The notes under the pieces were generated by a model. The model ran no database searches. It saw nothing but the letters and a program-made list of their open reading frames with translations, and was not told the origin of the DNA. The position numbers and the translations under genes were made by a program. Shown here piece by piece: positions 1,405 through 34,365 of a stretch of 37,286 bases of DNA (position 1 is its first letter; every line of letters starts with the position of its first letter). This stretch comes from Bacteroidaceae bacterium. Its GTDB lineage: Bacteria; Bacteroidota; Bacteroidia; Bacteroidales; Bacteroidaceae. The stretch is taken from assembly GCA_021443335.1 (NCBI GenBank), contig JABUUE010000006.1, positions 11,990-49,275 on the forward strand, given 5' to 3'.

Positions 1405-4400
1405 ATGACAACAGCAAACAAAATTCAAGATTTCGGCGCAAAGATTGGCGGCGCACGCAAAGACATGTATCAGGCAGCGAAAGAAATGGCGTACAAGTTC
1501 GCCGCAGCTGCAAACGTCCAAACCCTCGCAAACGCTAAGAGCGTGGGCGCACTGGTTAAGCTCCCGAACCTTGAAAGCCTGACAGCGGCGGGCGCAATCA
1601 GCGCAGACGCGGCGCGCGCAATCCTCACCACATGGCGCACGATAGACCGCAAGCCCAGTGCGAGCACCTGGCGCGTAAATCGCTGGGCAGAAAAGACCGC
1701 CCCGAAACTCTCGGTAATCTCCGCAATGCTTAACGGCGGAGAGGTGGAAGACGACACACGCCGCGCGCCTGAGTTCCGCGTATTGTGTGCGGCTAATTGG
1801 CCGGCACAGCCTTTCAGCTTCGGCAAATACTCAGTAGATTATTATTTGCTTTGGACAGCAGGCAAAGAGGGCGACCCGCTTTGTGTTACTACGGGTACCC
1901 GCTACTACTCTAACACTAAGACCAACGACCCCGCCGAGATTGTCGCGACATTAAAAAAGATGCTCGACGATGACAGCGCAAAGCGCGCCGAGGGTCCGGC
2001 ACTCGCAGCATACACCAACCGCGCGGGCGTTTGGTATATCGCCCCAGAAGGAAAGAAAGAAATTAATTTGCGCACACTGTCAGCAGACACCCCACGCGCA
2101 GAAATCCGCCGCATTCTGGCCGAAGAGCGCGCGCAGCTCCTCGCAACTCTCGCCGCATACAAAAATGTTCCTGAACTTCGTCGCGACTGGAACCGCCCCC
2201 GCATTGGTCAGGACTGGCGCAACGGTCAGGACGCAACCCCGGAGACATACGCCGCCGCTCTTCCGTTCCGCGGTGTTGAGTTCGGCAACTGGGTGACACA
2301 GACAGAGCGCGCCGCGTTACTTAACTCCGCTTTTGACGGCTTCCACGACCTCGCCCAGGTGCTCGGCATATCAGCAAATGAGATCACGCTTTTTGGATCG
2401 CTCGCGTTTGCGTTTGCTTCTCGTGGTATCTCTAAGGCGGCGGCACACTACGAAAGAGATTACAAGGTGATTAATCTGACCAAGAAAAACGGCGCGGGCT
2501 GTATGGCTCATGAATGGTTTCACGCTTTCGACAACTACGCCGGCGGCGGTTTGTCTTATGCTACAGATGGCCGCGGCGAGTTCGGCGCGTATGGTGTTAG
2601 ATTATACAAAGCAATCCGCGAAACAGAGTATTACAACCGCTCCGCAAATCTCGCTACCATCAAAGGCGATTACTGGACAAAGAATTGTGAACTAACCGCG
2701 CGCGCATTTGAGGCGGTTTGCGCCTATCTCCTGAAGCGTGCCGGCATCGTGTCCGACTTCCTCGTGAACTGTCTTTCGCTCGATGAGTTCACCGAAACCG
2801 ACAACTTGCACCGCTCATCCATTTATCCATATCCAACCGAGCAGGAGGCCGCCGCGCTCCTCCCTTATTATGTAGATTTCTTCCGCGCCGTTTTCGGCCC
2901 TCACGCTTTGCCGATAGATGCGGCAACAGAAAGCGACATCCAGCAGAAGACCGCCCAGGCAGACCGCGAGAAAGCTGAGAAGGAAGCCGCACGCACAGCA
3001 CAGGAAAAGGCCGAGCAGGAGGCACGCGCAGCGGCTCGCGCAAATGAGCATGAGAAGCAGCGCGCCGCAATAGAACAGCGCGCCGCACAGGTAGCCGAGG
3101 AGATGGGCGCAGACTTTAAGCATATTTTTACAAGCGGTTGCAAGGCTTACGCCGTTTGCGCCAACTCCGATTTTATCGCTATGATTTACAACAGTGGTAA
3201 AGTTGCATTCCGTATCATCACGACTAACACCAAGATACGCAAAGCGTACAGGACCGCGCATCGCTATTATATGGAAATCAACCCGGCGCAAGATTGGCGC
3301 GCGGTGCTCGTCGGAGAGTCTGTAAACGGTTTTTGTGTCGCAAATCAAAATTTTTATGACCTTTTCCGCTTGTCATATAATTCAAACTCTTTCGTAGAGT
3401 TTTGCGAAGCTCACGCCGAGGACATCGAAGTAGAGCGCGCAAAGCGTGCCGCAAAGGTTAAGAAAGCCCCACAGACCGCCGCAACACCGGCAGCGGACAA
3501 CAACACCACAACGACAGCCCCAGCCGCTCAGAGCGACCAGAACGACACAACAACCACAGCCCCGGAAGGCCTCACCCTGTGCGAGATGCCGGGCGGCGTG
3601 TATGTAGATGGCGAGAGCCGCGCAACCTACCGCAACCGCAAGGCAATTAAGGCACGCGGCGCACGCTGGAACAAAGACGCGCAACGCTGGGAAGCAACCG
3701 ACGCGGAATCCGTGGCAACTCTCCGCGCTTGGTTTGGTCAGGCTGACCAGACCGCCGAAGAGACCGCCGAGGTAGCCGCAGAAGCCACAACAGCCCCACA
3801 GAGCGACAACGCCGCCGAGGTGGAGGGCAATACCACCGAAACCCCGACAGTGGAACAGAGCGAGAGCAACGACAGCGCATCCGGCGCAGCCCCTTATAGC
3901 ACCGGCGAAAATTCACAGAATTTCGCCGCAGCCGGAGAAACCGCCGCGCCAGTGCTCACCGCTGTTAAAATAGTCAGCACGGGCGTAGCTGTTGCAATCG
4001 CCGTAGTAATTGACGGAGAGCCGCAGGAGGCGCGCCCCATATCCTCAGAACAGGCGCGCGCCGTCCTCACTGCCGACGACCCCACCGCAGCACGCTACGC
4101 CCTTGCCTTGGAGGTTTTCGCCGACCTCCTCGGCGGCGGCACTCAAAACCCCTCTTATAGCACCCCCGAAAATTCACAGGATTTCGCCACAGCGGGAGAG
4201 ACCGCCCCGACCGTCGCAGAGCTCGCCGAAGAGCCTACCACGGCCACGGAAGAGGGCGCCACCCAGACAACCGCGGGCGATGCCGCCACCAGTGGCCGAG
4301 CGTGCGAGACCGACGACGCAAACAGCCCTTATAAGGCCTGCGAAAAATCACAGAATTTACCGGCGCAGGAAGGAAATGACCCGACCGCCGCGCCAGACTC

Positions 4401-4710
4401 AGAGACTGAAACAACCGTTTGCCCTGACCTGATGGACACAGCCGCGGAATCTATAAAGCGCATACAAGAGCAGCATCCTGCCCATGTTTGCCTTTTCCGC
4501 TCTGACAAGTTTCCAGTTTATGAGACATGGGGCGCGAGTGCGGAAAAAGTCGCCGCAGCCCTGGAGGGCGTGGCACTTGAAAGTTACGAGAGCTTCCCGC
4601 AGTCAATGTGCAGGCGTGCCGCGTTCCATTGTCACGATTTAGTTCTAAATCTTCCAGAACTTATAAGACATGGGTTAAGAGTTGCAATTTGTGACGGGGT
4701 GGACTACTAA
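1405..4710 (+). CDS. large polyvalent protein with LPD1-like domain and zincin motif (HEWFHAFDN)
   Basis: 1101 aa; contains GVEFGNWVTQTERAALLNSAFDGFHDLAQVLGI...INLTKKNGAGCMAHEWFHAFDNYAGGG, typical of LPD1/zincin polyvalent proteins; long Ala/Glu/Thr-rich C-terminal linker. Confidence 0.75.
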   Translation: MTTANKIQDFGAKIGGARKDMYQAAKEMAYKFAAAANVQTLANAKSVGALVKLPNLESLTAAGAISADAARAILTTWRTIDRKPSASTWRVNRWAEKTAPKLSVISAMLNGGEVEDDTRRAPEFRVLCAANWPAQPFSFGKYSVDYYLLWTAGKEGDPLCVTTGTRYYSNTKTNDPAEIVATLKKMLDDDSAKRAEGPALAAYTNRAGVWYIAPEGKKEINLRTLSADTPRAEIRRILAEERAQLLATLAAYKNVPELRRDWNRPRIGQDWRNGQDATPETYAAALPFRGVEFGNWVTQTERAALLNSAFDGFHDLAQVLGISANEITLFGSLAFAFASRGISKAAAHYERDYKVINLTKKNGAGCMAHEWFHAFDNYAGGGLSYATDGRGEFGAYGVRLYKAIRETEYYNRSANLATIKGDYWTKNCELTARAFEAVCAYLLKRAGIVSDFLVNCLSLDEFTETDNLHRSSIYPYPTEQEAAALLPYYVDFFRAVFGPHALPIDAATESDIQQKTAQADREKAEKEAARTAQEKAEQEARAAARANEHEKQRAAIEQRAAQVAEEMGADFKHIFTSGCKAYAVCANSDFIAMIYNSGKVAFRIITTNTKIRKAYRTAHRYYMEINPAQDWRAVLVGESVNGFCVANQNFYDLFRLSYNSNSFVEFCEAHAEDIEVERAKRAAKVKKAPQTAATPAADNNTTTTAPAAQSDQNDTTTTAPEGLTLCEMPGGVYVDGESRATYRNRKAIKARGARWNKDAQRWEATDAESVATLRAWFGQADQTAEETAEVAAEATTAPQSDNAAEVEGNTTETPTVEQSESNDSASGAAPYSTGENSQNFAAAGETAAPVLTAVKIVSTGVAVAIAVVIDGEPQEARPISSEQARAVLTADDPTAARYALALEVFADLLGGGTQNPSYSTPENSQDFATAGETAPTVAELAEEPTTATEEGATQTTAGDAATSGRACETDDANSPYKACEKSQNLPAQEGNDPTAAPDSETETTVCPDLMDTAAESIKRIQEQHPAHVCLFRSDKFPVYETWGASAEKVAAALEGVALESYESFPQSMCRRAAFHCHDLVLNLPELIRHGLRVAICDGVDY
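3891..3927 (+). repeat. dispersed palindromic element, copy 1 (in-frame in CDS)
   Basis: cccttatagcaccggcgaaaattcacagaatttcgcc; GGCGAAA...TTTCGCC dyad. Confidence 0.75.
4151..4188 (+). repeat. dispersed palindromic element, copy 2 (in-frame in CDS)
   Basis: cctcttatagcacccccgaaaattcacaggatttcgcc. Confidence 0.7.
4326..4360 (+). repeat. dispersed palindromic element, copy 3 (in-frame in CDS)
   Basis: cccttataaggcctgcgaaaaatcacagaatttac. Confidence 0.75.
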
Positions 4711-4729
4711 CCACCCTACCCCACAAACA

Positions 4730-4765
4730 CCCTTATAAGGCCTCTAAATATTCACCGTTTTTTCA
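4730..4765 (+). repeat. dispersed palindromic element, copy 4 (intergenic, degenerate)
   Basis: cccttataaggcctctaaatattcaccgttttttc. Confidence 0.6.
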
Positions 4766-4800
4766 AACATAAAAGCATAATTACATAAAGACATAATATT

Positions 4801-4956
4801 ATGAAGACAAACAACATCTATCGCGCACATCGCACAATATATCGCCGCATAGCTGCGTGGCTCGACCGCCATGAGACTGTTTGCACTGTCGTAGCTTACA
4901 CTCTTGCCGGAGTCCTCATGCTTGCTGGCATAGTCCGTATGCTTGACAGCCTGTAA
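4801..4956 (+). CDS. small single-TM protein (51 aa)
   Basis: MKTNNIYRAHRTIYRRIAAWLDRHETVCTVVAYTLAGVLMLAGIVRMLDSL*; hydrophobic segment; below the ORF track length cutoff. Confidence 0.5.
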   Translation: MKTNNIYRAHRTIYRRIAAWLDRHETVCTVVAYTLAGVLMLAGIVRMLDSL

Positions 4957-4965
4957 CCACAACGG

Positions 4966-4996
4966 CCCTTATATGGGCTGTGAAAAATCACTGAAC
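4966..4996 (+). repeat. dispersed palindromic element, copy 5 (intergenic)
   Basis: cccttatatgggctgtgaaaaatcactgaac. Confidence 0.7.
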
Positions 4997-5045
4997 ACAC
5001 ATATACTATACCTTTTATCTTTTATTTCTTAGTTTAAGTGTTATT

Positions 5046-5250
5046 GCCTGGAGAACCAGGCGAGGCGCGTTAAGTAGTCCGAGAGGATGAAAGCCTAACC
5101 TTGTTTTATTTTCTAAACATTGTTGTGCCGGTCGCTGGGAAGCGGTCGGCACTGCTTCGCTCTCCCTACTCTATCAGCTGAAAGAAATTAACGTAATTAA
5201 GCCAGAAATCAACATAAAAAGATAAATGTTTTGTCCGCGCGGTGCGGGCT
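5046..5250 (+). ncRNA. candidate structured RNA in a long intergenic region
   Basis: GCCTGG-AGAA-CCAGGC (5046-5061); AGGC/GCCT (5063-5066/5093-5096) enclosing TCC-GAGA-GGA; GTGCCG-gt-CGCT-GGGA-AGCG-gt-CGGCAC (5125-5152); no good ORF. Confidence 0.4.
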
Positions 5251-5434
5251 GTTTTCTAATCATTCCTTTTTAATACATAATTACATCTATAAATAACATC
5301 ATAATGCCATAATTACATACATACATAATAACATATATCCATACTTTTATTTAATTATTCAATCTATCTTCACTTGACTAATATCATTTATAGTAAATTT
5401 TATATTTATAAAACGAAATATTTTACACAAATAA

Positions 5435-5465
5435 TTTGTAGATATAAATAAAAGTCGTACCTTTG
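5435..5465 (+). promoter_or_regulatory. Bacteroidetes-type promoter TTTG-N19-TACCTTTG
   Basis: TTTG 5435-5438; TACCTTTG 5458-5465; 19-bp spacing. Confidence 0.8.
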
Positions 5466-5528
5466 CAGCAGAAACAAAACAAACATTATCGTTAACCGGG
5501 GCATAAGCTCCACAAAACAACTAAAGTC

Positions 5529-6017
5529 ATGAAAGCAACTAAGAAGAACATTAAGGAAGCAGTCAAGAACTACATTTCGACACGCAATCTTACGCAGTTC
5601 TGCAAGTCAATGAAACTTATGGGTATCACCAAGCAGCTCGACATCCTCAATGCTGTTGAGGAAGTAGCCTGCAAGCGTGACGCAAATGCCATGTGGCACA
5701 TCATCATGGGTGCTCACGGATATCGTCGTTATGACAAGGTTGCAACTCTTCACAGCAACCTCGACGAAAGCCCCGTGTTCGCTCCTTCTCAGTCTGAGGA
5801 CACTAACTTTGTCAGTGGCTTTGCAAACCTCATGAAGTCAATGCGCGCAAACAAAGATAGCGGTTCTTACATGAAGGTACTTGTCGTTGGTAACAAGCAC
5901 ATCTATTGGGCAAGCCCTGTATATCAGCACTCTGACTACAACAAGAGCGTATGGCGCGAGAACGCAGCAGAGAACCGCCGCAAGGCCGAAATCATCAACG
6001 CTTATCTCCTTAAATAA
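5529..6017 (+). CDS. hypothetical protein (162 aa)
   Basis: Intact ORF downstream of a strong promoter. Confidence 0.7.
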   Translation: MKATKKNIKEAVKNYISTRNLTQFCKSMKLMGITKQLDILNAVEEVACKRDANAMWHIIMGAHGYRRYDKVATLHSNLDESPVFAPSQSEDTNFVSGFANLMKSMRANKDSGSYMKVLVVGNKHIYWASPVYQHSDYNKSVWRENAAENRRKAEIINAYLLK

Positions 6018-6114
6018 CAGGACTGGGGTACACACTGTACCCCCTACTCTTATACACCTTATAATTTTCAAGGCATTTTCAACCGGGCAACAGCCCATAA
6101 AACAACAAAGCATT

Positions 6115-6468
6115 ATGAAAACTACTAATCGGGACAATGTTACACTTTATCTCGTAAGGACTTATAAAGCATATATGGCTTCAGAATGTGTAACACAGTG
6201 GAGAACAAACGACTCTCATAACGACGCATATTACGGCGAGGAAACGCTGGATAATGCGGATTTTATCCTCCCTCAAGGTTATTCAGTACACGAATCGCGC
6301 TTTGGCGAGATATACTTCAAGCAAGGTAATACTGTATTCGAGGAAATAATTACAGGCGAAGACGGAAATCCTTATGTGACAGATTACCTTAATGGGTGCG
6401 AGATAAAGTTGGAAAGAGTAAGCAACAATGTGGCAGAAACAGAGATAGAAATAGAAATTCCTAAATAA
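6115..6468 (+). CDS. hypothetical protein (117 aa)
   Basis: ATG at 6115 (MKTTNRDNVTLYLVRTYKAYMAS...) preferred over the upstream start at 5881, which overlaps the previous CDS. Confidence 0.65.
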   Translation: MKTTNRDNVTLYLVRTYKAYMASECVTQWRTNDSHNDAYYGEETLDNADFILPQGYSVHESRFGEIYFKQGNTVFEEIITGEDGNPYVTDYLNGCEIKLERVSNNVAETEIEIEIPK

Positions 6469-6516
6469 CCACATAATTACATAATTACATAAACCGCGGG
6501 ATGCCGCACAATCACT

Positions 6517-7878
6517 ATGACTTACAGAGACTATTTGCAACTTATACACGAGGCCAACCGCCACAGCAACCTATATTATAACGAATCACGACCAGAGATA
6601 AGCGACGCGGACTTTGACGCACTCGTGGCACGCATAGAAGCCTACGAGAGCGAAAACCCAGCGCAGGTGCACCCAGACAGCCCAACCCAGAAAGTAGGCG
6701 CAGCATGTGCCGGAATTGTGGCACACACAACGCCAATGCTGTCGCAACAAAAGAGCCACACAGCAAACGAGGTGCTGGCGTGGATAGAGAAGACTAACAA
6801 TAAGCTCGGCCACAAGGCTAACTACGCCGTAGCGTGGAAATACGATGGCATCAGTTGTTCACTTGTATATATCGATGGACGTCTAACAACAGCAGCCACC
6901 AGGGGCGACGGGACGAGAGGACAGGACATCACCGCCCATGCGCTTGCAATACCTTCTATCCCAAACATTATAGACTGTGAGGGTAGGGTAGAGGTGCGCG
7001 GCGAGATTGTCTGCCCTCTTGCCTCCTTCGGGAGCTTAGGCTACAATGACGCAAGGACCGCAGCGAGTGCCATCTGTAATGCCTCTTATAGTGAGTGTGC
7101 GAAATCACTGGTTTTCTACGCCTGGGATGTAATAGGTAGCCGTCATGCGCTCAACTCCTTCATATACGAGAGTGAGGCGGTGACCGAAGAGCAGATTACG
7201 CAAGTTATAGCAGAGCGCACGGCACAGCGCGACACACTGACATTTCCGACCGACGGACTTGTTATCCGCGTGACTGATAATGCCGACTGCGCGATGCTCG
7301 GAGCAAACAAGCATCATCCGCACGGCAGCATGGCTTACAAGTTTGCGGCAGCAAGTTGCACTACAACAGTGCAGCGAATAGAGGTAATGACCGGCAAGAC
7401 AGGCAAGCGCACGCCTGTAGCGCACATAGAGCCTGCAATGCTCGGAGGCAAGACCATCCGCAAGGTGTCGCTATACACCGAGCGCACAATGGCACAGATG
7501 GGCGTAACGGAGGGGAGTAGGGTAGTGGTAACGCTGCACAACGATGTAACGCCTAAGATTACGAGAGTAGTAGGGGAGAGTGCGGCAGAACAGGAAAGTT
7601 CAGACAGCGGGGCTGATATAGAGCGCGACGCCAACTTACAGCGCAAGGCATGCCGCGAAGATCGCAAGGCCGAGGAAGCGCAACAATCGGATGAAGAAGC
7701 ACGCATAGCAGCGGAGCAGGAGGCAGCAGCAGAAGCCGCGCGCAAAGCGAAATATGCACGCCAGGCAGCAGTGCTCACAGCAGTAGTGACAGTGGCAGCA
7801 GTGGCAGCGGTGGCGGTTGTAGGCGTAGGCATGGCATTCTTCATTGCACCCCTGTTGGTTGGAGCTTTCAAGGGCTAA
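6517..7878 (+). CDS. ligA: NAD-dependent DNA ligase (Ia, adenylation and OB-like regions) with C-terminal coiled-coil and TM segment
   Basis: YYNESRPEISDADFDALVARIEAYE...DSPTQKVG (domain Ia), AWKYDGISCSLVYIDGRLTTAATRGDGTRGQDIT (KxDG nucleotidyltransferase), hydrophobic C-terminus VLTAVVTVAAVAAVAVVGVGMAFFIAPLLVGAF. Confidence 0.85.
   Translation: MTYRDYLQLIHEANRHSNLYYNESRPEISDADFDALVARIEAYESENPAQVHPDSPTQKVGAACAGIVAHTTPMLSQQKSHTANEVLAWIEKTNNKLGHKANYAVAWKYDGISCSLVYIDGRLTTAATRGDGTRGQDITAHALAIPSIPNIIDCEGRVEVRGEIVCPLASFGSLGYNDARTAASAICNASYSECAKSLVFYAWDVIGSRHALNSFIYESEAVTEEQITQVIAERTAQRDTLTFPTDGLVIRVTDNADCAMLGANKHHPHGSMAYKFAAASCTTTVQRIEVMTGKTGKRTPVAHIEPAMLGGKTIRKVSLYTERTMAQMGVTEGSRVVVTLHNDVTPKITRVVGESAAEQESSDSGADIERDANLQRKACREDRKAEEAQQSDEEARIAAEQEAAAEAARKAKYARQAAVLTAVVTVAAVAAVAVVGVGMAFFIAPLLVGAFKG
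7082..7116 (+). repeat. dispersed palindromic element, copy 6 (in-frame in the ligase gene)
   Basis: cctcttatagtgagtgtgcgaaatcactggttttc; encodes SYSECAKSLVF. Confidence 0.6.
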
Positions 7879-7941
7879 ACCCTTGGAAGGGCAGAAAAAA
7901 GGCGCAATCTTTATGCCCATTTTCCGCCCTTTATCTAAAAA

Positions 7942-7976
7942 CCCTTATAAGGTGTCTGAGAAATCACCGAATTTTC
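7942..7976 (+). repeat. dispersed palindromic element, copy 7 (intergenic)
   Basis: cccttataaggtgtctgagaaatcaccgaattttc. Confidence 0.75.
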
Positions 7977-7992
7977 AAAACCTAAAAACAAA

Positions 7993-8805
7993 ATGAACAC
8001 ACTTCCTTATATCGGTAAGCACGAGCTTACACCATTACCAATACATGAGCCAATGTCCGTTCCGGCATTCAGGCAGAACATGGCGCATGATGCGCCGTAT
8101 ATAGTAACCAAGTTTCAGCAGCGTAGCGGACTCGGCGACTGTATAATAGGCCTGTTTCCTCCGCATTTCGTGGCGAAGATTTACGCCTTCAAGACCTCAG
8201 ACCACAGGCAGCATGTGAGAGAGCGTGATGAGTCGGCGAGGGAAGCCTATATGACTAACAAGCAGAGGGCAGCCCGAATGGGCTACGAGGCGAAGAAGAA
8301 AGGCTACAGGAGCGTTAAAGACTATATCGCGGCAGAAGGCGGCGCAAACGGAGTTCCAGTGACCTACGATGACGAGTACGACGAAGCGCGGCTAACAGCG
8401 AAGGTGCCAGGACTGAATGTGTATCTGGAACTGCAAGGATGCCTTGACAATTGCACCGACGACTACCACCATCCGTTTCGCGATGCTTCCTTCCATGATT
8501 ACGCAATGGCAGAACTAAACAATATGGCACTGTGGGCACTCAACAACTGGACGCGCAAGGATCGTCGAGCAATGGCTACCAAGAGCGATGACGAACAGCC
8601 GGTGATGGAGTGGCAAGAGAACTATGACGAGAGCCAACGCCCGCCTATGCCTCCTAAGCGCGGTATAGGCGTCTGGCCCAACATTGATGCCAGCCGTCGC
8701 CCAGAACTTCTCCACAGCAAAGCCCCCCTTTGCGCTAAAGATGACCATGAGGCCATTATGGAGCTGAAGGCGGCTACCGCACGGGCAGCAGCGGGAGCAG
8801 TCTGA
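7993..8805 (+). CDS. hypothetical protein (270 aa)
   Basis: Intact ORF, no recognised domain. Confidence 0.7.
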   Translation: MNTLPYIGKHELTPLPIHEPMSVPAFRQNMAHDAPYIVTKFQQRSGLGDCIIGLFPPHFVAKIYAFKTSDHRQHVRERDESAREAYMTNKQRAARMGYEAKKKGYRSVKDYIAAEGGANGVPVTYDDEYDEARLTAKVPGLNVYLELQGCLDNCTDDYHHPFRDASFHDYAMAELNNMALWALNNWTRKDRRAMATKSDDEQPVMEWQENYDESQRPPMPPKRGIGVWPNIDASRRPELLHSKAPLCAKDDHEAIMELKAATARAAAGAV

Positions 8806-8809
8806 AAAG

Positions 8810-8846
8810 CCCTTATAGAGGGTCTGCGAAATCACTGAATTTCGCA
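8810..8846 (+). repeat. dispersed palindromic element, copy 8 (intergenic)
   Basis: cccttatagagggtctgcgaaatcactgaatttcgca; perfect TGCGAAAT/ATTTCGCA arms. Confidence 0.75.
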
Positions 8847-8927
8847 ATACTAATTGTTCTTTGACATCATTTATCGCAGCCAAATACAAAAAATCAAGGC
8901 TACAGTAGAAAAAAGGATGATTTTATT

Positions 8928-8957
8928 TTTGTAAAACGAAATAAAATTATAACTTTG
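8928..8957 (+). promoter_or_regulatory. Bacteroidetes-type promoter TTTG-N18-TAACTTTG
   Basis: TTTG 8928-8931; TAACTTTG 8950-8957. Confidence 0.75.
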
Positions 8958-8963
8958 CAGCGT

Positions 8964-9196
8964 TCAAGTTCAAGTTTTTACCATAGGCATGATGCAAAAG
9001 TCTGCCAAAAGCAGGCTTTTATTGTAGCCAAAAGTATGAGGGTGTATCGAAACGCGACGCCCTTACATATAGCATAACGGTTGCTTAACCCCGTGGATAT
9101 ACTGTAATGGTAATCCGAGCCTGTGGTAACATGACTTGAACAGCGGGAAGTGGGCAACCGTTTATTTTGTCCTATCATCATTAATGTTTCAAAATT
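8964..9196 (+). ncRNA. structured leader / possible antisense RNA upstream of the antirepressor gene
   Basis: Hairpins 8996-9020 (AAAAG-T-CTGC/GCAG-G-CTTTT) and 9039-9063 (AGGGTGT/ACGCCCT); perfect 9-nt complement AACGGTTGC (9076-9084) / GCAACCGTT (9154-9162) close to the start codon. Confidence 0.45.
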
Positions 9197-10090
9197 ATGT
9201 TACCAAACATTAAAATTTTTGAGAACGCCGAATTTGGAAAAGTCAGGGTAACGACTGACGAGAACAATGAGGCATGGTTTAACGCAACGGATGTCTGCAA
9301 GGGGCTGGGATACGCAGCAGCGCGAAATGCGGTTAAGGCACATGTAGATTGCGACGATGCACTGAAACGATGCACCGTCGATTCAAAAGGAAGGAAGAAC
9401 ACTGCGCTTTTCGTCAACGAGTCTGGTTTGTACGCCTTAATCTTCGGCTCCAAGTTGGAGAAGGCAAAGGCTTTCAAGCGGTGGGTGACGAAAGATGTTC
9501 TTCCGAGCATCAGGAAGACCGGCAACTACACCGTGCCGGCGTCTACCGACGAGCAGACCGCGCAGTTGCAGAAGATAGTCAAAGACAGGCATGGGCTGAA
9601 ACTCGCACTGAACACCATCAACACGGTAAAGGACTGGACAGAGGCTCTGATGCTTGCCCTTGACAAAGAGGGCAACCACGACTACTTGGACTACTTTCTT
9701 CGCTGTCGCACCGACATCAGTATGATAACCCTTGCCAATGATTACGGAGTGGCATACGGCAAGATGTATGAGTACATGGAGCACTGCGGAGTATTGGAGC
9801 GCGTATCTTCCCAGTCTGCGAACACGCAATGCTTTGACTTCGTGCCGGAGTTTCAGCAGAACGGCATGTTCTATGAAGGTGACTGCATAAGCATCAAGGA
9901 CAAAAACGGCGATTATGTCTGCGACTGCGATATAATGATAACAACGAAAGGACGCATATTCATGTACCTCCGTCTGCGTAGTATCGGCATCCTGCCAGTG
10001 ATAGAGCGCAGCTCAATAAGAACCCAGCGCATCCTGAAGCCAGACGCAGCAGATTGCCTTCCGAGATTATCAATAACTAAAACAAAATAA
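9197..10090 (+). CDS. phage antirepressor, BRO-N domain with KilA-C-like C-terminus
   Basis: IKIFENAEFGKVRVTTDENNEAWFNATDVCKGLGYAAARNAVKAHVD...TALFVNESGLYALIFGSKLEKAKAFKRWVTKDVLPSIRKTGNY; C-term GRIFMYLRLRSIGILPV. Confidence 0.85.
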   Translation: MLPNIKIFENAEFGKVRVTTDENNEAWFNATDVCKGLGYAAARNAVKAHVDCDDALKRCTVDSKGRKNTALFVNESGLYALIFGSKLEKAKAFKRWVTKDVLPSIRKTGNYTVPASTDEQTAQLQKIVKDRHGLKLALNTINTVKDWTEALMLALDKEGNHDYLDYFLRCRTDISMITLANDYGVAYGKMYEYMEHCGVLERVSSQSANTQCFDFVPEFQQNGMFYEGDCISIKDKNGDYVCDCDIMITTKGRIFMYLRLRSIGILPVIERSSIRTQRILKPDAADCLPRLSITKTK

Positions 10091-10095
10091 ACGCT

Positions 10096-10266
10096 ATGTT
10101 CGAGAAGATGTTTCCTATGGCCGTTGACGAGTACCAGGCAAAGGTCATTACAGCAATACAGATGATTCTCGCCCTTCCGCCTGAGAGCGAGATAAGAGAC
10201 AGCATAGAGGTGCTGACATACGCGCACCAGATGAGCGAATATATAGACAAGCAAGACAACGAGTAA
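10096..10266 (+). CDS. small hypothetical protein (56 aa)
   Basis: MFEKMFPMAVDEYQAKVITAIQMILALPPESEIRDSIEVLTYAHQMSEYIDKQDNE*; follows the antirepressor in the same direction. Confidence 0.5.
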   Translation: MFEKMFPMAVDEYQAKVITAIQMILALPPESEIRDSIEVLTYAHQMSEYIDKQDNE

Positions 10267-10364
10267 CTACAATAAGATCGGGATAGGCAGAGAATGCCTA
10301 TTCCGGACTTTGCCGCATAACACAATAAATACATAATTACATAAACCAATAAAACAATAATATT

Positions 10365-10889
10365 ATGAAAAAGCTATTTGCTACAATCGTGTTTGCGTTA
10401 GCATGTACTTGCGTAAACGCACAGAACCAGACAATGGAACTATCCTTTAACGAGGATGGATGTTTCTCAACAGTTATATCTGTTAATGCAACAGCACAGC
10501 AGATATATACACATGCGCAGTCTTATTGCCTTAATAAGGCAAGAACAAGCGACAAACCAATCGCCAACAAAGTTCCTGAAACATATACAATAAGATATAC
10601 CGATTTCTGGACACATGGCGTATATGCGAATGTTGTAGGTCAAAACAAAGATGTTGCAGAGAAATGCAACATTACTATATCTGCACAAGATGGCAAGATG
10701 TATATACATATTGAGACTCCGAATATAGTATATCCGAGAGTGAATGAGCAAACGCAGTATAAGGTATTCATGGCGATGCTTAAAGAAGACGGTAAGGCTA
10801 AGTTTTTGGAAACAAGAAAAGGCTATTATTCAGAATTTCTTTCTCCGATAAAAGACTTTATAGAGAAAAGAGTCAACTTCGAGAAATAA
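10365..10889 (+). CDS. exported protein of unknown function (signal peptide)
   Basis: MKKLFATIVFALACTCVNAQ N-terminal signal peptide; DUF4468-like by general impression only. Confidence 0.6.
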   Translation: MKKLFATIVFALACTCVNAQNQTMELSFNEDGCFSTVISVNATAQQIYTHAQSYCLNKARTSDKPIANKVPETYTIRYTDFWTHGVYANVVGQNKDVAEKCNITISAQDGKMYIHIETPNIVYPRVNEQTQYKVFMAMLKEDGKAKFLETRKGYYSEFLSPIKDFIEKRVNFEK

Positions 10890-10924
10890 CCCTTATATGG
10901 TTTGTGAAAAATCACTGATTTTCG
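10890..10924 (+). repeat. dispersed palindromic element, copy 9 (intergenic)
   Basis: cccttatatggtttgtgaaaaatcactgattttcg. Confidence 0.75.
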
Positions 10925-10948
10925 GAACACTATTAAACTTAAACCATA

Positions 10949-11794
10949 ATGGACAGACTAAAAGAAGTGCTCGCCTTCGTGAACAACAAAGGTGGAGTAG
11001 CTAAGACCACCACGGTGCAGAACACGGCAGCCGGCTTGTTACGAAAGGACAAGCGGCTGCGCGTGCTGTGCATAGACCTTGACCCACAAGGAAACCTGTC
11101 GAGCCTGTTAGGGTGGAGGAAGAAACAGGACGAGGTGAGAACCAACAAGACGATAAAAGACTCTCTAATGGATGCCGACAACCCGCTCTATATATACAAG
11201 AGTAGGGAAGGGTTGTATTACTGCCCTGCGTCTCCAGAGTTGGCACAGATAGACCCTGCGCTGCATAGTCAGATGAACTCAAAGTTAGTCCTTTGCTCTT
11301 TGTTCGGCAACAAGATATTCTATATGGATGATTTGTACGGCAGCGACCACAAAGATGCCATGTGTAGAGAGAGATATGTGTATGAAGCATTCGACTATAT
11401 CCTTATAGACTGTGCGCCCGCATTGTCGGAACTTACATATAATGCCCTTGGAGCAGCCACAGGAGTAATCATCCCCGTGCAGTTAGGTTCACTATCGGTT
11501 GATGGTATTCCACCGCTTATACAGGCTTATAAGTCGGCGAAGAAGGGGCTTAACAAGGAACTTGAACTCAGAGGTCTGTTGATGGTGATGTGCGATGAGC
11601 GCACAAGACTCGCCAAAGAGACCATAGACTATGTTAAGGAGCAGTACGGTTGCAATGTGTTCAAGACAAGAATAAGACAGTGTGTTAGGGTAGGGGAGAG
11701 CCAATTTCAGCACCAGGACATATTCCAATATTCGCCATACTGCAAGGCAGGAATAGACTATATGAGTTTTGTCGAAGAATTAATGCCGGAATAA
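10949..11794 (+). CDS. parA: ParA-family partition ATPase
   Basis: Deviant Walker A VNNKGGVAKTTT, then VLCIDLDPQGNLSSLLG and DYILIDCAPALSELTYNAL. Confidence 0.95.
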   Translation: MDRLKEVLAFVNNKGGVAKTTTVQNTAAGLLRKDKRLRVLCIDLDPQGNLSSLLGWRKKQDEVRTNKTIKDSLMDADNPLYIYKSREGLYYCPASPELAQIDPALHSQMNSKLVLCSLFGNKIFYMDDLYGSDHKDAMCRERYVYEAFDYILIDCAPALSELTYNALGAATGVIIPVQLGSLSVDGIPPLIQAYKSAKKGLNKELELRGLLMVMCDERTRLAKETIDYVKEQYGCNVFKTRIRQCVRVGESQFQHQDIFQYSPYCKAGIDYMSFVEELMPE

Positions 11795-11830
11795 CATAAC
11801 ACCGGAATAAATTAACAAATAAACATAATA

Positions 11831-12127
11831 ATGAACAAGAAATACGGAAAGCCACTTGTCGCTGGCAGTGCAGCAGCACAAGAGAACATTGAAAAGATTA
11901 AGCAGTCTAACGCAGAATATACGGAAGCAGCAGAGGTGGTGAAAACAACCGCAAAGCCAAAGCGCAGCAGAACGCAAGGCGAAGACTGGATATTGATACA
12001 GGCTCGCATACCTATTAATCTTCATAAGCGTTTCATGATATACATGGCAGAGAACAATCTTACGAACACTAAAATGAAACTCGTGGAAGAAGCCTTGGAG
12101 TATTGGCTTGACAGCAAGCAGGGCTAA
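11831..12127 (+). CDS. small basic partition partner (ParB-like/RHH candidate)
   Basis: 98 aa immediately downstream of parA; C-term IQARIPINLHKRFMIYMAENNLTNTKMKLVEEALEYWL resembles a ribbon-helix-helix arrangement. Confidence 0.6.
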   Translation: MNKKYGKPLVAGSAAAQENIEKIKQSNAEYTEAAEVVKTTAKPKRSRTQGEDWILIQARIPINLHKRFMIYMAENNLTNTKMKLVEEALEYWLDSKQG

Positions 12128-12182
12128 GACGGTTGACACGGTGCGTCTTTACCTTAAATTCTTGGCTCGTTCATCTGCAAAT

Positions 12183-12219
12183 CCCCTATATAGCGTCCTT
12201 GCAAAATCACCGAATTTTC
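12183..12219 (+). repeat. dispersed palindromic element, copy 10 (intergenic)
   Basis: cccctatatagcgtccttgcaaaatcaccgaattttc. Confidence 0.65.
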
Positions 12220-12378
12220 AAAAATTTTTTCGCTTTTTATATTAATATAATATGTATATATAAATCTTGGTTTTACAATATTATGTATATTATATTCTAT
12301 TATATATATTACCGAAACTGAAAACCACTGAAACACAAAGCGTTATATACATGAATGCTGAACAAGATGCCAAAAAAC

Positions 12379-12466
12379 CTGAACGAAATGGTAGATTATG
12401 CTGAACGAAATGGTAGATTATGCTGAACGAAATGGTAGATTATGCTGAACGAAACGGTAGATTATG
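12379..12466 (+). repeat. iteron array, 4 x 22 bp (CTGAACGAAATGGTAGATTATG)
   Basis: Copies at 12379, 12401, 12423 and 12445 (last with one A>C change); directly upstream of the rep gene and downstream of an AT-rich stretch (12220-12310). Confidence 0.9.
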
Positions 12467-12479
12467 ATACACATAACTG

Positions 12480-13940
12480 ATGAATATGGAAAAAGAAAAA
12501 TCACTCTCAATACTTAACGACTGGATAAATACTCCATTCTCATACTTGGAGCAGTTTGCTGGAAAAACCAATCTTGCACAAGATATAATGATGAAGGTGT
12601 CTGAGAGCATTCAGGAGTATATAGCACCTTTCTTCGATGAAGGCCGGCACAAGGACAAGGTAAAACCTAACCCTTTGTTTTCTGCTGAAGACAGGCGGAC
12701 ACTGAAACCGATAGTCATCCGTCTTGCCGACTACGGCATCTCTGGTCATTACGATAGGGTAGAAGCAGCTGTCAAGGCAATATTGGAATCACACATAAAG
12801 ATAGAGACACCACTACCAGGAGGAAAGCGTGTCAGATGGTACAATATCTTTAAGAACAGCCTTACCGACTACACCGACAAAGGCTATACCTTCATTAACA
12901 AAGATGGCGAGAAGGAGACAGTTTCGCGCAGTAAGGGATATGTGGTGTTTGAGATAAACGAAGATGTGGCAGACTTGGTTTTTGACATGAGCAAAGGCTA
13001 TATCAATCACCCGGTGAAGATGGCGCGTATAAGTAGTGCCACACATACAACGCAGCTGTATGCCTTGCTAAAGCACCATTGCATAAACGGCAAGTGCAAA
13101 CTTACGGTCAATGAAATCAAGAAATATCTTGGGCTGTGTGCCGTTGACGAAAATGGAGATGTAACGAGCTGGATGTTTCCGTACTTCTACCATTTCCGTA
13201 AGAATGTTCTCGATAAGGTGCAAGCAGACCTTACACGCATGGGCGAACTGGGGCAGATAGACTACACATATACATATAAGGAGATAAGGCAGGGCGGGAA
13301 GACCAAGGGCGATCCTGACAGCATAGAGTTCACCTTGGTGCCGACGATAATCACGGAGCAGGTAGAAAACGATAGGGCTATGCAATCAAAACGAAGGAAG
13401 CTAATAAATACATTATGCAAGCGATGTGGCGACCTTAACCGGAAAGAAGTAAAGGATGTTACGGACTATGTTAAGGAAGTTGATTTCCTGATATTCGCTG
13501 ACTACTGTTATAAGGAGATACCTATGCTTATTGAAAAGAACTATCCAGAAGATGTGGCAGGATATATACTGTATCTTATGCGTACATGGATAGAGAATTA
13601 TGAAGCAAGGAAGAACAAGCAGCCGATAACACAAAGTCTTTTTGATACTATAGAACCTGAGCGACCGAAAGAAACGGTAATAGAAGGAAAGTACGCAGTG
13701 GAGTGGGAGAGACTATGCAATGAATGTCCTGAGTCATATAAGGAATGGTTAAGGAAAGCGACATTTATCGGAGGACGCGGAATGAACATATACATAGAAT
13801 TTAAGGATAAGGTCACGCAGGGAAGGTTTAGTGAGTTTCACCACAACGGAAGCAAGGATAGTAAGAAATTTCATAAACTATATAAACAAATAATGAACAA
13901 TAAAAGCAGTGGATGTTTGCTTACTTTCGGAAGCAAGTGA
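12480..13940 (+). CDS. plasmid-type replication initiator (Rep_3-like winged helix)
   Basis: YALLKHHCINGKCKLTVNEIKKYLGL...FRKNVLDKVQADLTRMGELGQIDYTYTYKEIRQGGKTKGDPDSIEFTLV; iterons immediately upstream. Confidence 0.8.
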   Translation: MNMEKEKSLSILNDWINTPFSYLEQFAGKTNLAQDIMMKVSESIQEYIAPFFDEGRHKDKVKPNPLFSAEDRRTLKPIVIRLADYGISGHYDRVEAAVKAILESHIKIETPLPGGKRVRWYNIFKNSLTDYTDKGYTFINKDGEKETVSRSKGYVVFEINEDVADLVFDMSKGYINHPVKMARISSATHTTQLYALLKHHCINGKCKLTVNEIKKYLGLCAVDENGDVTSWMFPYFYHFRKNVLDKVQADLTRMGELGQIDYTYTYKEIRQGGKTKGDPDSIEFTLVPTIITEQVENDRAMQSKRRKLINTLCKRCGDLNRKEVKDVTDYVKEVDFLIFADYCYKEIPMLIEKNYPEDVAGYILYLMRTWIENYEARKNKQPITQSLFDTIEPERPKETVIEGKYAVEWERLCNECPESYKEWLRKATFIGGRGMNIYIEFKDKVTQGRFSEFHHNGSKDSKKFHKLYKQIMNNKSSGCLLTFGSK

Positions 13941-13976
13941 TAAAAGAGCGGTACAGATGTATCGCTCTTTTTTTGT

Positions 13977-14009
13977 CCTTATATATGCCTGAAAAATCAC
14001 TATTTTTGC
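13977..14009 (+). repeat. dispersed palindromic element, copy 11 (intergenic, divergent 3' end)
   Basis: ccttatatatgcctgaaaaatcactatttttgc. Confidence 0.55.
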
Positions 14010-14035
14010 AGCATAATACTAATACATTAATATAT

Positions 14036-14620
14036 ATGAGACTATTATGCTTAACATTCATCATCGCGTGCCTGCTGTCATGCTCGACAACAAAAAAGGC
14101 AACATCAGTTGTGCATACTACGGAAAAAGATTCCGTAGCGCAAGTAATAGAACAGTCTCGGACTGTACAGAAGACTATCGAGGAGACCGACTCCACAGTG
14201 CAATCAAACTCAGAGACATCCTCCATCAATAAGGAGGAGGATAAGACCGCAGCGGAGATAATATTTGAGGTAATATCCATCACAACGGACAGTGCCGGTG
14301 TTACACATCGCAGAGAAGAGCGCACCATAAAGCGTAACAGCGCATCTATATATAAGGAAAGCAGTACAGCGGAAAGACAGGAGAGGAGTGAGATTATAGA
14401 CAGACAGAAGCAGATGCTCGACTCGATATATGAAGGCAGACTGACTGATATAAAGACACATTATTCAGACAGCCTCAATTACCAGGATAAGAAGGATAAA
14501 GAAAGTGTTATAGAAGACTTTTATGAAAAACATATAGAAGTCCCGCTTATAACTTCAATTATAATATTACTTGTAGTAGTAGGCTCTTGCATCTACTGGA
14601 AATACAAGAACAAGAAATAA
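14036..14620 (+). CDS. lipoprotein with C-terminal TM helix (u-spanin-like topology)
   Basis: MRLLCLTFIIACLLSCSTTKK lipobox; C-term VPLITSIIILLVVVGSCIYWKYKNKK; start at 14036 preferred over 13913, which overlaps rep. Confidence 0.6.
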   Translation: MRLLCLTFIIACLLSCSTTKKATSVVHTTEKDSVAQVIEQSRTVQKTIEETDSTVQSNSETSSINKEEDKTAAEIIFEVISITTDSAGVTHRREERTIKRNSASIYKESSTAERQERSEIIDRQKQMLDSIYEGRLTDIKTHYSDSLNYQDKKDKESVIEDFYEKHIEVPLITSIIILLVVVGSCIYWKYKNKK

Positions 14621-14628
14621 CATAAAAA

Positions 14629-14658
14629 AAGATACCACGCTTCGCAGCGAGGTATCTT
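14629..14658. terminator. bidirectional hairpin terminator between convergent genes
   Basis: AAGATACC...GGTATCTT with A-tract 5'; between ORFs ending at 14620 (+) and 14680 (-). Confidence 0.65.
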
Positions 14659-14679
14659 CCCATGAAAAATTACTCTCAT

Positions 14680-15003
14680 TTACACTGTGTTGTTTTGTTG
14701 TAATCTCTCTTTGCTTAGCTTTATGTTTGTAAAAATCATGAGTTCACCAGTCAGTGACACCTGAAGAAAGAAACCTTCTTGTTCAAGCATTGTAAGATAT
14801 TCTTTCAGAGGATCACCCAAAGATGTAGGCCATGCCTTAAAGAAATCCCTGAGCTGCGTTTCGTTGAAACTATTTGATGAGTTGTATTCTGTAGCAGGAG
14901 AGTAGTACGAGCAGAACGCCCTTACTTTTTGTGGGATAATAAACTCCATTATAGAAGTCCCCTGCTCTTTTGCGTCCTTATATGGATCTTCTTTCTTTGC
15001 CAT
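14680..15003 (-). CDS. hypothetical protein (107 aa)
   Basis: Intact ORF; minus-strand TACTTTTG -7 box (15029-15036) upstream. Confidence 0.6.
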   Translation of the reverse strand: MAKKEDPYKDAKEQGTSIMEFIIPQKVRAFCSYYSPATEYNSSNSFNETQLRDFFKAWPTSLGDPLKEYLTMLEQEGFFLQVSLTGELMIFTNIKLSKERLQQNNTV

Positions 15004-15128
15004 TAACGGTTTTTTGATTTTCGCTCTGCAAAAGTAGTGTTTTATTTTGTAAATACTGAATATAAATTTGTAAAATTGAATAAAAGTTATAATATATCAA
15101 GTTTAATTACAAATTTATAAAATAAAAC

Positions 15129-15159
15129 TTTGTAAATTAAAATTGATGTATTACCTTTG
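15129..15159 (+). promoter_or_regulatory. Bacteroidetes-type promoter TTTG-N19-TACCTTTG
   Basis: TTTG 15129-15132; TACCTTTG 15152-15159. Confidence 0.8.
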
Positions 15160-15197
15160 CAGTCACTAACGATTACTTAACCGAATACCTAATTTAT

Positions 15198-16028
15198 ATG
15201 TATTATTACAAAACATATCGCACAACAGTTCTTGGAAAGAAACTAACCTCTTTTATGGAGAAGTCAGAGATAGCGGCAAGGGCATCTGAACGATATGCAA
15301 AAAAATGCGGTGCGTTGGCATACATTCAACCTGTGCAGTATTTTGAGGGTGGCGTAGAGTTCTTGGAGTTCGAGAAAGAGCCAGACCTTAATGTATGGCG
15401 CAAGAGAACTGACTTAGGCGATACGCCGCTTTATGAACCTAACTGCTCCTCCGAAAGCTGTTACCTTGCAACGAATGACGATAAGTTTACACCGTCAAGC
15501 ACATGGAACAAACTATACGCTACAAAAGCCGTACACTGGGACCAGGTGAAGTACGAGAAACCTATTGAGTATTGGATGCAATACGCGAAGATAACTCCAA
15601 CAGAAGACGAGAAACATAATCTTGCAGCATACAAAGAGATGTATGCTAAAATGCTTGACGACAAATTAGGCAAGATGCTTTTCTGGCGATGTCTCCGTTT
15701 TACGGGGCCACAAAAGCCGCAAGACAGACGCGCAAAATCGTCAAGAGCGTTGCATAAGGCGGTCAAGATGGAGCAGATGCGCATCGCGCTGCCTGTAGTT
15801 CAAGTTCAGGAATTGTATGATATTCTCGACTGCGCTCTTAGTGACAGGAAGAGCGAGCAAGAGCAATATACTCCTACGCTCTTCCTGTATAAAGACCATT
15901 ACTATATAGGCGTGCAATACAAATGCTCTAACTCTGAACTTACGGAGATAGAGAAGTCGGAACATAATTACCAGATGGAGCAGTATAAGATTTCCCTGAC
16001 ATACAAAGGCGAATATGGCGACATTTAA
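15198..16028 (+). CDS. hypothetical protein (276 aa)
   Basis: Intact ORF with promoter; convergent with the repressor gene. Confidence 0.7.
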   Translation: MYYYKTYRTTVLGKKLTSFMEKSEIAARASERYAKKCGALAYIQPVQYFEGGVEFLEFEKEPDLNVWRKRTDLGDTPLYEPNCSSESCYLATNDDKFTPSSTWNKLYATKAVHWDQVKYEKPIEYWMQYAKITPTEDEKHNLAAYKEMYAKMLDDKLGKMLFWRCLRFTGPQKPQDRRAKSSRALHKAVKMEQMRIALPVVQVQELYDILDCALSDRKSEQEQYTPTLFLYKDHYYIGVQYKCSNSELTEIEKSEHNYQMEQYKISLTYKGEYGDI

Positions 16029-16729
16029 GCGTGATTATCCTCGGCAGCGAGACCAATAACGCTGTTTTCCCCCGTGCTCGTTATTGCATCATCCGAATCA
16101 ACATCAGGCTTATCCCTGTTATCATTAGTAAGCATGGCGATAGTTTTCTCTTGGTCTTTAATGATATTTACCAGCGATTCTATCTGTGCATTATGAGCGG
16201 CAACAAGATTATTAACCGTACTCAAACACTTCTCAATAACCTCACGCATAGACTTCTCGTGGGTAACATCCACCACATGTTCATCTTTCATCTGGCCAGT
16301 ATTACCTTTAAGGATGCCTTTGTTGCGCTCCAGCTGTGCATCTCGGTTTTTAAGACCTATTTCCACAGCATCCTTCTGAGCAAGAGTGGTCGCTTTGCGC
16401 TCAGTAATCTTAGTGATAACAATCCCACGCCCTGCGCCTTCCTTGATACCGTAATTGTCCGTTGGAAGCAGTTGAGCGGTCTTATCAGGAGCGCATGGCT
16501 CAAAATCAGCAGGCAGCCCATCTTCATCAACGAAGAAGTTTGCGAGAGGAATATTATAATAGTTACAGATACGAAGCATAGCACATATATGAACAGGCAC
16601 CTTCCCTTCATACCAATTCTTGGGAGACGCAAAGTCCTTACTGCCTAACGCTTCTACAATGTCGCGGGTGCGAAGATGATGCTTATCCATGAACTGACGG
16701 AGAAAAGCATAGTTGTAAGAGTAATTCAT
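16025..16729 (-). CDS. phage repressor-like HTH regulator
   Basis: N-term LRQFMDKHHLRTRDIVEALGSKDFASPKNWYEGKVPVHICAMLRICNYYNIPLANFF is HTH-like; C-terminal coiled coil; divergent from the replication operon. Confidence 0.65.
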   Translation of the reverse strand: MNYSYNYAFLRQFMDKHHLRTRDIVEALGSKDFASPKNWYEGKVPVHICAMLRICNYYNIPLANFFVDEDGLPADFEPCAPDKTAQLLPTDNYGIKEGAGRGIVITKITERKATTLAQKDAVEIGLKNRDAQLERNKGILKGNTGQMKDEHVVDVTHEKSMREVIEKCLSTVNNLVAAHNAQIESLVNIIKDQEKTIAMLTNDNRDKPDVDSDDAITSTGENSVIGLAAEDNHA

Positions 16730-25063: not shown

Positions 25064-25843
25064 ATGCCTTACGCCAAACCACTTAAACCGAAAAAGAAAC
25101 AAAAGGCAATACACAGCAGAAAGCCTGACTATGTGCCGTTACAAGCTATGCCTTACAACATACGATACGCTATTGAACTATGTGACTATACAATTATGAA
25201 TACTATAAACTACTTCAACATGGGAATAGCAGAGGTAGTTGATTGGCTGGAAGAACATATACCTGACGATTTACAAGGATGTGAACAGGCATTGGCTACT
25301 ATTATAGAGAATGAGAAAAATCACTATAAGCGTAACGCCAACTATAAAGATGCAAAAAGCAACAAGAATCGCACCCTAATGATGCGTTACTTTACTCACC
25401 CCGACCTTATGGCATATCGAGAGAAAATCAAGAAGAATGTCTCGATGCGAGCCGTGCGTAATCATTACCGCAAACCTTATCTTGTCGGATGGTGCTGCCT
25501 TCTCTATATGGCGAGTAAGGTACTTATACAGGTTTTACGCGATGTCCCAGTAAGGCTTTCCGATAATCTCCGCTGTGCGCATATCGACATCCGACGCATA
25601 GACGAGATAGTGAAGGACATTGATATTGAAAGCATGATAAGGGAGTTGACTCAGCCAGTAAGCAAACTTATAGGGCATTTGTTGGAGCAGACCGGAATGG
25701 ACGAGAATACATTTCAAGAATATATAGCATGGTCATCAAAGAATGATGGCGAATACATCGACATCTTCGCCAATATTCACATAAAAGACATCTGCGACTC
25801 AATAAACAAAATGGTTGACGAGGAGCAGAGGCAGAAGCAGTAG
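25064..25843 (+). CDS. hypothetical protein (259 aa)
   Basis: ATG at 25064 (MPYAKPLKPKKKQKAIHSRKPDYVPLQAMPYN...). Confidence 0.65.
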   Translation: MPYAKPLKPKKKQKAIHSRKPDYVPLQAMPYNIRYAIELCDYTIMNTINYFNMGIAEVVDWLEEHIPDDLQGCEQALATIIENEKNHYKRNANYKDAKSNKNRTLMMRYFTHPDLMAYREKIKKNVSMRAVRNHYRKPYLVGWCCLLYMASKVLIQVLRDVPVRLSDNLRCAHIDIRRIDEIVKDIDIESMIRELTQPVSKLIGHLLEQTGMDENTFQEYIAWSSKNDGEYIDIFANIHIKDICDSINKMVDEEQRQKQ

Positions 25844-33786: not shown

Positions 33787-34353
33787 ATGGCACTACCATC
33801 ACCAACCCACATATTAACGTCAGACCCTCTAATCATTGCTATTGTCGGTCCCTCAGGTGCCGGCAAGGACACGATAGCAGAGATATTATGCAACAGCAAC
33901 GGATGGAATCGCGTTGTGTCTTTCACCACTCGCCCTATGCGTGAAGGAGAGCGCGACGGCGTAGAGCACTGGTTTGTTAATGAGATGCCGCGCGGTGTGC
34001 CGCTACTTGCGCAGACTACCTACGGCGGCTACAAGTATTGGACTACGGCTGCGCAGGTCGTAAAACATGAAGTCAGCGTCTATATTATCGACGAAGCCGG
34101 ACTCGCAGACCTCCAGCAGACGGTCAGCATGCTATACAAGATAAACATCGTCAAAGTATATGTAGAGCGCGATGAAGAGATAAGGTATCAGAGCGGAGTA
34201 TCGGCAGAGCGCATTAAACGCGACCGCCACAGAATGCAATTCCATAAAGAATATTACGACTATATCATCATCAACAACAAGAGCATATCGGCATTGAAAC
34301 ACCGACTCCGCGCTCTTGCAAAATCAATTTACAAGAAATACATAAATACATAA
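33787..34353 (+). CDS. guanylate kinase-like (d)NMP kinase
   Basis: IIAIVGPSGAGKDTIAEILCNSNGWNRVVSFTTRPMREGERDGVEHWFV. Confidence 0.85.
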   Translation: MALPSPTHILTSDPLIIAIVGPSGAGKDTIAEILCNSNGWNRVVSFTTRPMREGERDGVEHWFVNEMPRGVPLLAQTTYGGYKYWTTAAQVVKHEVSVYIIDEAGLADLQQTVSMLYKINIVKVYVERDEEIRYQSGVSAERIKRDRHRMQFHKEYYDYIIINNKSISALKHRLRALAKSIYKKYINT

Positions 34354-34365
34354 ATACATACAAAT

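Follow-up and report, generated by a model that had tools for sequence, protein, structure and literature searches.

Ten copies of a short sequence element, all read in the same direction, were located in a 37,286-nucleotide stretch of DNA from a Bacteroidaceae bacterium (the window). The window spans positions 11990-49275 of contig C92 (58.5 kb), which belongs to a metagenome-assembled genome (MAG) of 125 contigs. The same element recurs in related viral and same-genus records; judged from the sequences, the copies appear to be asymmetric, bipartite recognition sites in DNA that form one family throughout a lineage of Bacteroidales phage-plasmids, and they are regarded here as candidate sites. 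By analogy with mycobacteriophages, they might be stoperator-like, directional protein-binding sites that control the early operon of this phage-plasmid lineage, and a probability of about 40% is given to this reading. The shared sites, place and direction suggest a conserved switch on early viral gene expression.

Copies of the element in the window and in its relatives

The original prediction described eleven same-orientation copies of a palindrome, mostly at gene ends. A 36-bp position-weight matrix was built from ten of them and used for leave-one-out scoring, with 20 simulated contigs as the control. The ten left-out copies scored 28-49 bits, and all of them are on the + strand of C92; the maximum per simulated contig averaged 3.5 bits, and the highest was 13.5 bits. 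The eleventh reported copy (at 13977; 13975..14010, + strand) is doubtful. It was excluded from the count because it scored -14 bits in the leave-one-out test, its spacer is 1 nt short, and it overlaps the N-terminal codons of the next gene, a conserved stretch (M..KSL) that is similar at the same place in relatives. The region of 14-37 kb had been described as free of copies; one weak + strand match was found there within a gene (25297..25332, 20-23 bits), which may be due to chance. In pattern searches of the 125 contigs of the host MAG, the confident copies were solely on C92, with one 2-mismatch singleton elsewhere and no clusters on other contigs.

The placement at gene ends holds for six of the ten copies; the other four are intragenic. 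Copies 1 (3889..3924), 2 (4150..4185) and 3 (4324..4359) are within an LPD-domain open reading frame (ORF, 1405-4710), and their additional flanking similarity indicates that local duplication contributed. Copy 6 (7081..7116) is within the ORF of an NAD-dependent ligase (6517-7878). Copy 4 (4728..4763) is about 20 nt 3' of the stop of the LPD ORF, and its counterparts 3' of the LPD gene family were also found in G037, G206 and G159. Copy 5 (4964..4999) follows the stop of a 51-aa ORF (4801-4955) by about 11 nt, copy 7 (7940..7975) is located between the ligase stop (7878) and an ATG at 7993, and copy 8 (8808..8843) is directly 3' of a stop at 8805. Copy 9 (10888..10923) is directly after a stop (10889) and upstream of parA (10949..11794, + strand), a position occupied likewise in six records. 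Copy 10 (12183..12218) is about 60 nt 3' of the stop (12127) of a small RHH gene; the element also follows the RHH gene in four other records, which makes five including the window.

The motif is bipartite and asymmetric, TTATAG-N4-tcTG-A(W)4-T[C/T]A[C/G]-nGaTTTT, reading along transcription. The consensus of one lineage is nCCCnTTATAGnnnCTCTGAAAAATCACnGATTTT, and other lineages have T[C/T]A[C/G]AG in place of TCACnG. The TTATAG part is near-invariant across the records. Motif positions 21-23 are taken by A or T, with G or C almost never present.

Relatives were found through ParA (42-67% identity) in IMG/VR and among same-genus MAG contigs. The ParA search of IMG/VR returned 16 contigs at 57-66% identity, and the ParA proteins of diverged relatives brought more; a viral search using Rep gave no matches. 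The closest ParA relatives on plasmids were from Segatella plasmids (42-45% identity). Records of 62-130 kb were retrieved piecewise; many records are fragments, and not all are independent (for example, G201 and G205 are close). The matrix was then trained by iteration over 1.69 Mb with both strands scanned; it yielded 244 copies (the weak ones lean towards the matrix), compared with 5 in simulated sequence. Each related record has 3-26 copies. They are confined to the LPD-ligase-ParA-Rep operon region, from the early-operon start to ParA/Rep, and the structural genes are largely free of them.

A sequence-only covariance model was also run against 200 same-genus genomes; it gave clusters on C92 and G037:C37 and an apparent one on G227:C289, with background singletons elsewhere. 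The matches on G227:C289, a contig of the same genus, are four weak ones on the - strand (12563-15765), and it is probably another carrier. A strict pattern gave one viral and four unrelated genomic matches, as single copies diverge too much to be found by exact patterns. A loose pattern scan of viral_contigs gave single-match loci only and was uninformative.

The palindromic character was not confirmed, since the dyads of copies 1 and 8 are not family-wide and the paired cells do not exceed the shuffles. Among 175 non-redundant copies, no covariation was detected in the proposed stems (pairing was not above shuffled partners), and the RNA folding z was -0.01. An independent pairing count on 50 copies likewise showed no excess, and there were no Rfam matches within the window. 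A structured RNA or hairpin at the reported dyads was therefore rejected, in the absence of excess pairing, compensatory changes, folding signal (z about 0) and Rfam match. Three roles had been proposed for the element; protein-binding sites of the plasmid-like half fit best, given the A/T-only positions, the bipartite asymmetry, the head-to-tail pairs at 26-28 bp and the conservation throughout the lineage, whereas hairpin-based transcript processing or attenuation found no support in these tests, and the mobile REP-like role is also disfavoured (see below).

Orientation and placement of the sites

The orientation of the copies is nearly uniform within records: 233 copies have the majority orientation and 3 the opposite one, which was not imposed by the search. 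It is also the orientation of the genes of the region, on the + strand in G205, G206, G393 and G392 and on the - strand in G201, G202, G207 and G390; in all element-rich regions, the genes form a run that shares the direction of the sites. Genes were called as simple longest ORFs, by which small genes were missed and some gap lengths overestimated. The median stop-to-copy distance is 13 nt. Among 224 copies, 44% have both a stop and a start at no more than 60 nt, compared with 4% of random positions in the same regions; other copies are intragenic. In G393 and G392, about two dozen copies occur in about 12 kb, and nearly every gene pair is separated by a copy. The occupied junctions are shared across diverged phages, including those behind the LPD genes, the RHH gene and a short gene of about 53-63 codons, and the one before parA. 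The copies are mostly single, with a median spacing of 666 bp. Ten head-to-tail pairs at 26-28 bp were also found, and triplets exist in some relatives. In G199, G201 and G205, a good Bacteroides-type promoter starts the operon, and such arrays are located about 60-70 bp upstream of it. An apparent exclusion between the elements and host-type promoters disappeared once it was conditioned on gap length, and it was not used as evidence.

Each site might be a small promoter for a phage-modified or alternative host RNA polymerase, which would give one transcript per early gene. The single orientation agrees with this, as does the site directly before almost every gene of the region in G392 and G393, often ending at the ATG; moreover, intergenic repeats of the halovirus HF2 were shown to carry promoters (PMC8707807). 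However, in gaps of 60-150 nt the preceding stop is nearer in 42 copies and the next start in 11, which ties the sites to the stop and points to a roadblock behind a gene instead of a promoter before one. Several intragenic copies have no start for 350-900 nt, and the head-to-tail copies at 26-28 bp are too close for separate polymerases. The RNA polymerase motif DxDGD was not found among the predicted proteins, and a good Bacteroides-type promoter is already present at the operon start. A promoter role is thus considered rather unlikely.

The sites might also act in the transcript, as an unstructured RNA signal at gene junctions that is read by an RNA-binding protein, a nuclease or a ribosome-associated factor. 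The copies are always in sense orientation and lie at junctions, and the start-associated sequences of Cluster K mycobacteriophages are a comparable start-linked repeat (PMC3203893). Nevertheless, A and U would be interchangeable where G and C are almost absent, which is unusual in RNA recognition, and no structure was detected. The distance from copy to ATG varies among lineages, and in several relatives the operon promoter is preceded by tandem copies. An RNA signal is therefore judged unlikely.

The intragenic copies use two reading frames. One (CGT TAT AGC... or CCT TAT AGC...) is that of copies 1-3 and of the copy in the ligase gene of the window, and the other (CCC GTT ATA GAG...) occurs in relatives. 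Where the window has the ligase copy (7081..7116), relatives have coding sequence of roughly the same length, and so this copy arose by substitution, not insertion. This bears on whether the family is a mobile element of the REP/MITE or Rickettsia-palindrome type, with insertions both between genes and inside them. The many copies, some within ORFs, and the flanking similarity of copies 1-3, to which local duplication contributed, might be expected of such an element; but the family is not palindromic and forms no hairpin, the same junctions are kept in divergent phages, the orientation is single and fixed, and no host-chromosome clusters exist. The mobile palindrome was rejected on these grounds, and its probability is close to negligible.

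Polar DNA-processing sites limited to the origin-proximal arm, such as a replication-fork barrier, a translocase orientation signal or a DNA-entry signal, would also have a single orientation, and nearly all sites are indeed on one side of rep. The polarity of replication or translocation is inseparable from the gene strand, because the element-rich regions have no convincing opposite-strand genes. However, the junction preference and the retention behind particular genes are not required by such a role, and nothing in the present data ties the sites to replication or packaging. This role is considered very unlikely.

Possible stoperator-like control and comparison with other repeats

The closest analogues appear to be the stoperators of mycobacteriophage L5 and the start-associated sequences of Cluster K. 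Stoperators are asymmetric, lie in short intergenic spaces, are oriented with transcription and are inactive when reversed (PMC9283540, PMC6550527). The element resembles those of the Cluster A mycobacteriophages (L5, TipsytheTRex), which number 20-30 per genome, in being asymmetric, transcription-oriented and placed in short intergenic spaces (PMC9283540, PMC6550527); the corresponding figures here are 233 vs 3 copies for orientation and 44% vs 4% for placement. Cluster A also includes extrachromosomal parABS phages. On the other hand, stoperators are 13-14 bp long, whereas the present element is bipartite and measures about 30-36 bp. The motifs of stoperators differ from repressor to repressor, while the core of the present motif is near-invariant across distant phages; and, unlike stoperators, the present sites are also found on the flanks of parA and rep and within genes.

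The SAS/ESAS of Cluster K are likewise repeated, asymmetric, nearly all in one orientation and located at gene junctions (PMC3203893). The SAS is 13 bp and tied to start codons; the present element exceeds that length, is linked to the stop before it, and occurs within genes and in tandem as well. The element was therefore rejected as a Start Associated Sequence, given its lineage-dependent start distance, the nearer stops in gaps of 60-150 nt and the intragenic copies. The 17-bp repeats of Cluster O (Corndog) have more than 30 copies, about one third of them in coding regions, are denser towards one genome end and have been likened to stoperators (PMC4351075); however, they are perfect dyads without fixed orientation, whereas the present element is asymmetric and directional. 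The HF2 repeats also lie between genes at positions conserved among relatives (PMC8707807), although they were shown as promoters in an archaeal host, and a promoter role seems less likely for the present element.

In the stoperator-like scheme, a sequence-specific protein would bind the sites and act directionally on the passing RNA polymerase, in the manner of the L5 stoperators. The early operon might then be held silent or low in the plasmid-prophage state and released on induction. A protein that reads duplex DNA is suggested by the A/T-only positions, the asymmetry and the tandem spacing; an action on the passing polymerase is suggested by the single orientation both at junctions and within genes.

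Several observations weigh against this scheme. No cognate repressor was found: the two Cro/CI-type HTH genes (464-823; 16025-16729, - strand, with a coiled-coil tail) were not detected in all element-bearing records, several of which are fragments, and neither gene has an element upstream. Immunity repressor sites usually diversify fast; TTATAG is near-invariant even among records whose ParA identity is just about 42-56%. In relatives, the tandem copies do not cover the host-type promoter but are about 60-70 bp upstream. The sites also flank parA and rep, which the plasmid prophage needs to express, and their agreement with the gene strand is inseparable from a replication or translocation polarity, since convincing opposite-strand genes are absent from the element-rich regions.

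The HTH protein of 16025-16729 was considered as a universal reader and rejected, as it was undetected in many element-bearing records, several being fragments. Its gene is alone on the - strand among + strand genes, is conserved in twelve records and is a candidate regulator.

A wider possibility, which is held tentatively and on balance doubted, is a transcription-polar DNA element whose reader has kept its specificity across very diverged phage-plasmids, while the ParB-like protein, the repressor-like genes and most neighbours changed. The element would then be a new kind of control site that works in one direction throughout the genome and is distinct from promoters, operators, terminator hairpins and centromeres; it would occupy almost all junctions of the accessory early-gene region and might aid the exchange of gene cassettes.

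The carrier element and its replication and partition genes

Genes for the phage tail (tape measure) and head (head maturation protease) were found on C92 alongside Rep3, ParA and the RHH protein. A phage-plasmid is the simplest account of this gene content, and the carrier is probably of this type. The Rep3-type replication initiator (Rep3_N) is encoded at 12480..13940 on the + strand. Directly before it are four near-perfect 22-bp tandem direct repeats (CTGAACGAAATGGTAGATTATG; 12379..12466, + strand), with period-22 counterparts before rep in the relatives G206 and G207; this array probably represents the Rep3 replication iterons. The repeat region as a whole covers 12357-12466. The element itself was rejected as a Rep3 iteron, for it is dispersed and unrelated in sequence to the separate array before rep in C92, G206 and G207; the binding by Rep that had been suggested is thus disfavoured.

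The small RHH protein (11831..12127, + strand) is considered ParB-like from synteny and a weak RHH_10 match (E=0.001, under the Pfam cut-off), and the support for an RHH protein 3' of ParA is accordingly weak. The RHH ParB omega of pSM19035 binds WATCACW heptads, of which four or more contiguous ones are needed (PMC9499535). The sites might therefore be a dispersed centromere that is bound by the RHH protein for partition. The pSM19035 system likewise pairs ParA with an RHH partner. The RHH gene is 3' of parA in most records, a site is present before parA in six records and after the RHH gene in five including the window, tandem copies exist, and the AAATCAC part of the motif resembles the omega heptad (PMC9499535). 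However, the beta-strand of the RHH protein varies (VQTRIP, VQTYIP, NINVPIP, VKVTIP), whereas TTATAG and most of the motif are constant; conversely, the same VQTYIP strand occurs with different second half-sites (TTAG in G390; TCAC/TCAG in G393). The motif thus does not follow the RHH specificity strand, and this also disfavours the ParB-like binding that had been proposed. Omega requires at least 4 contiguous heptads (PMC9499535), whereas the element has none and its copies are mostly single, and partition offers no reason for a single fixed orientation. The element is probably not a ParB centromere, and a partition role appears improbable.

Some other features were also observed. The ligase ORF (6517-7878) encodes adenylation and OB domains, and later ligase domains were not detected in it; its end is a tail that is both Ala/Lys-rich and hydrophobic, and it is shorter than the ligases of relatives. 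A second repeat, composed of A-rich 8-bp units (ACATAATTACATAA / ACATAAATACATAA), is present at 4762-4796, 5266-5357, 6458-6492, 10310-10344 and 34327-34361. The arrays at 4762, 6458, 10310 and 34327 are 5-25 nt before ATGs, and might be a leader or translation enhancer. At the early-operon start of G199, G201, G205, G206 and G207, a short hairpin is located in the 5' leader after the host-type promoter. Its arms have changed yet stayed complementary (GTGGC/GCCAC, GCCTC/GAGGC, GAGGGC/GCCCTC), with flanks of AACC and CACAAAA or CATAAAA, and it looks like a real structured leader. G+C-rich minisatellites (for example, GGGGTGCCCGTGTGTGCCTCCATG) are directly before the early-operon promoter in G201, G205, G206 and G207, and the records end or begin there.

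To our knowledge, no mechanism has been described for the switch between plasmid maintenance and lytic growth in the phage-plasmids of gut and rumen Bacteroidales. The motif, with 3-26 copies per genome in one orientation, provides a handle on it, as it marks the early region and permits a search for the binding factor. Whether stoperator-like control also arose beyond the mycobacteriophages can be tested directly with the motif, and its profile may be used for recognising such elements in metagenomes.

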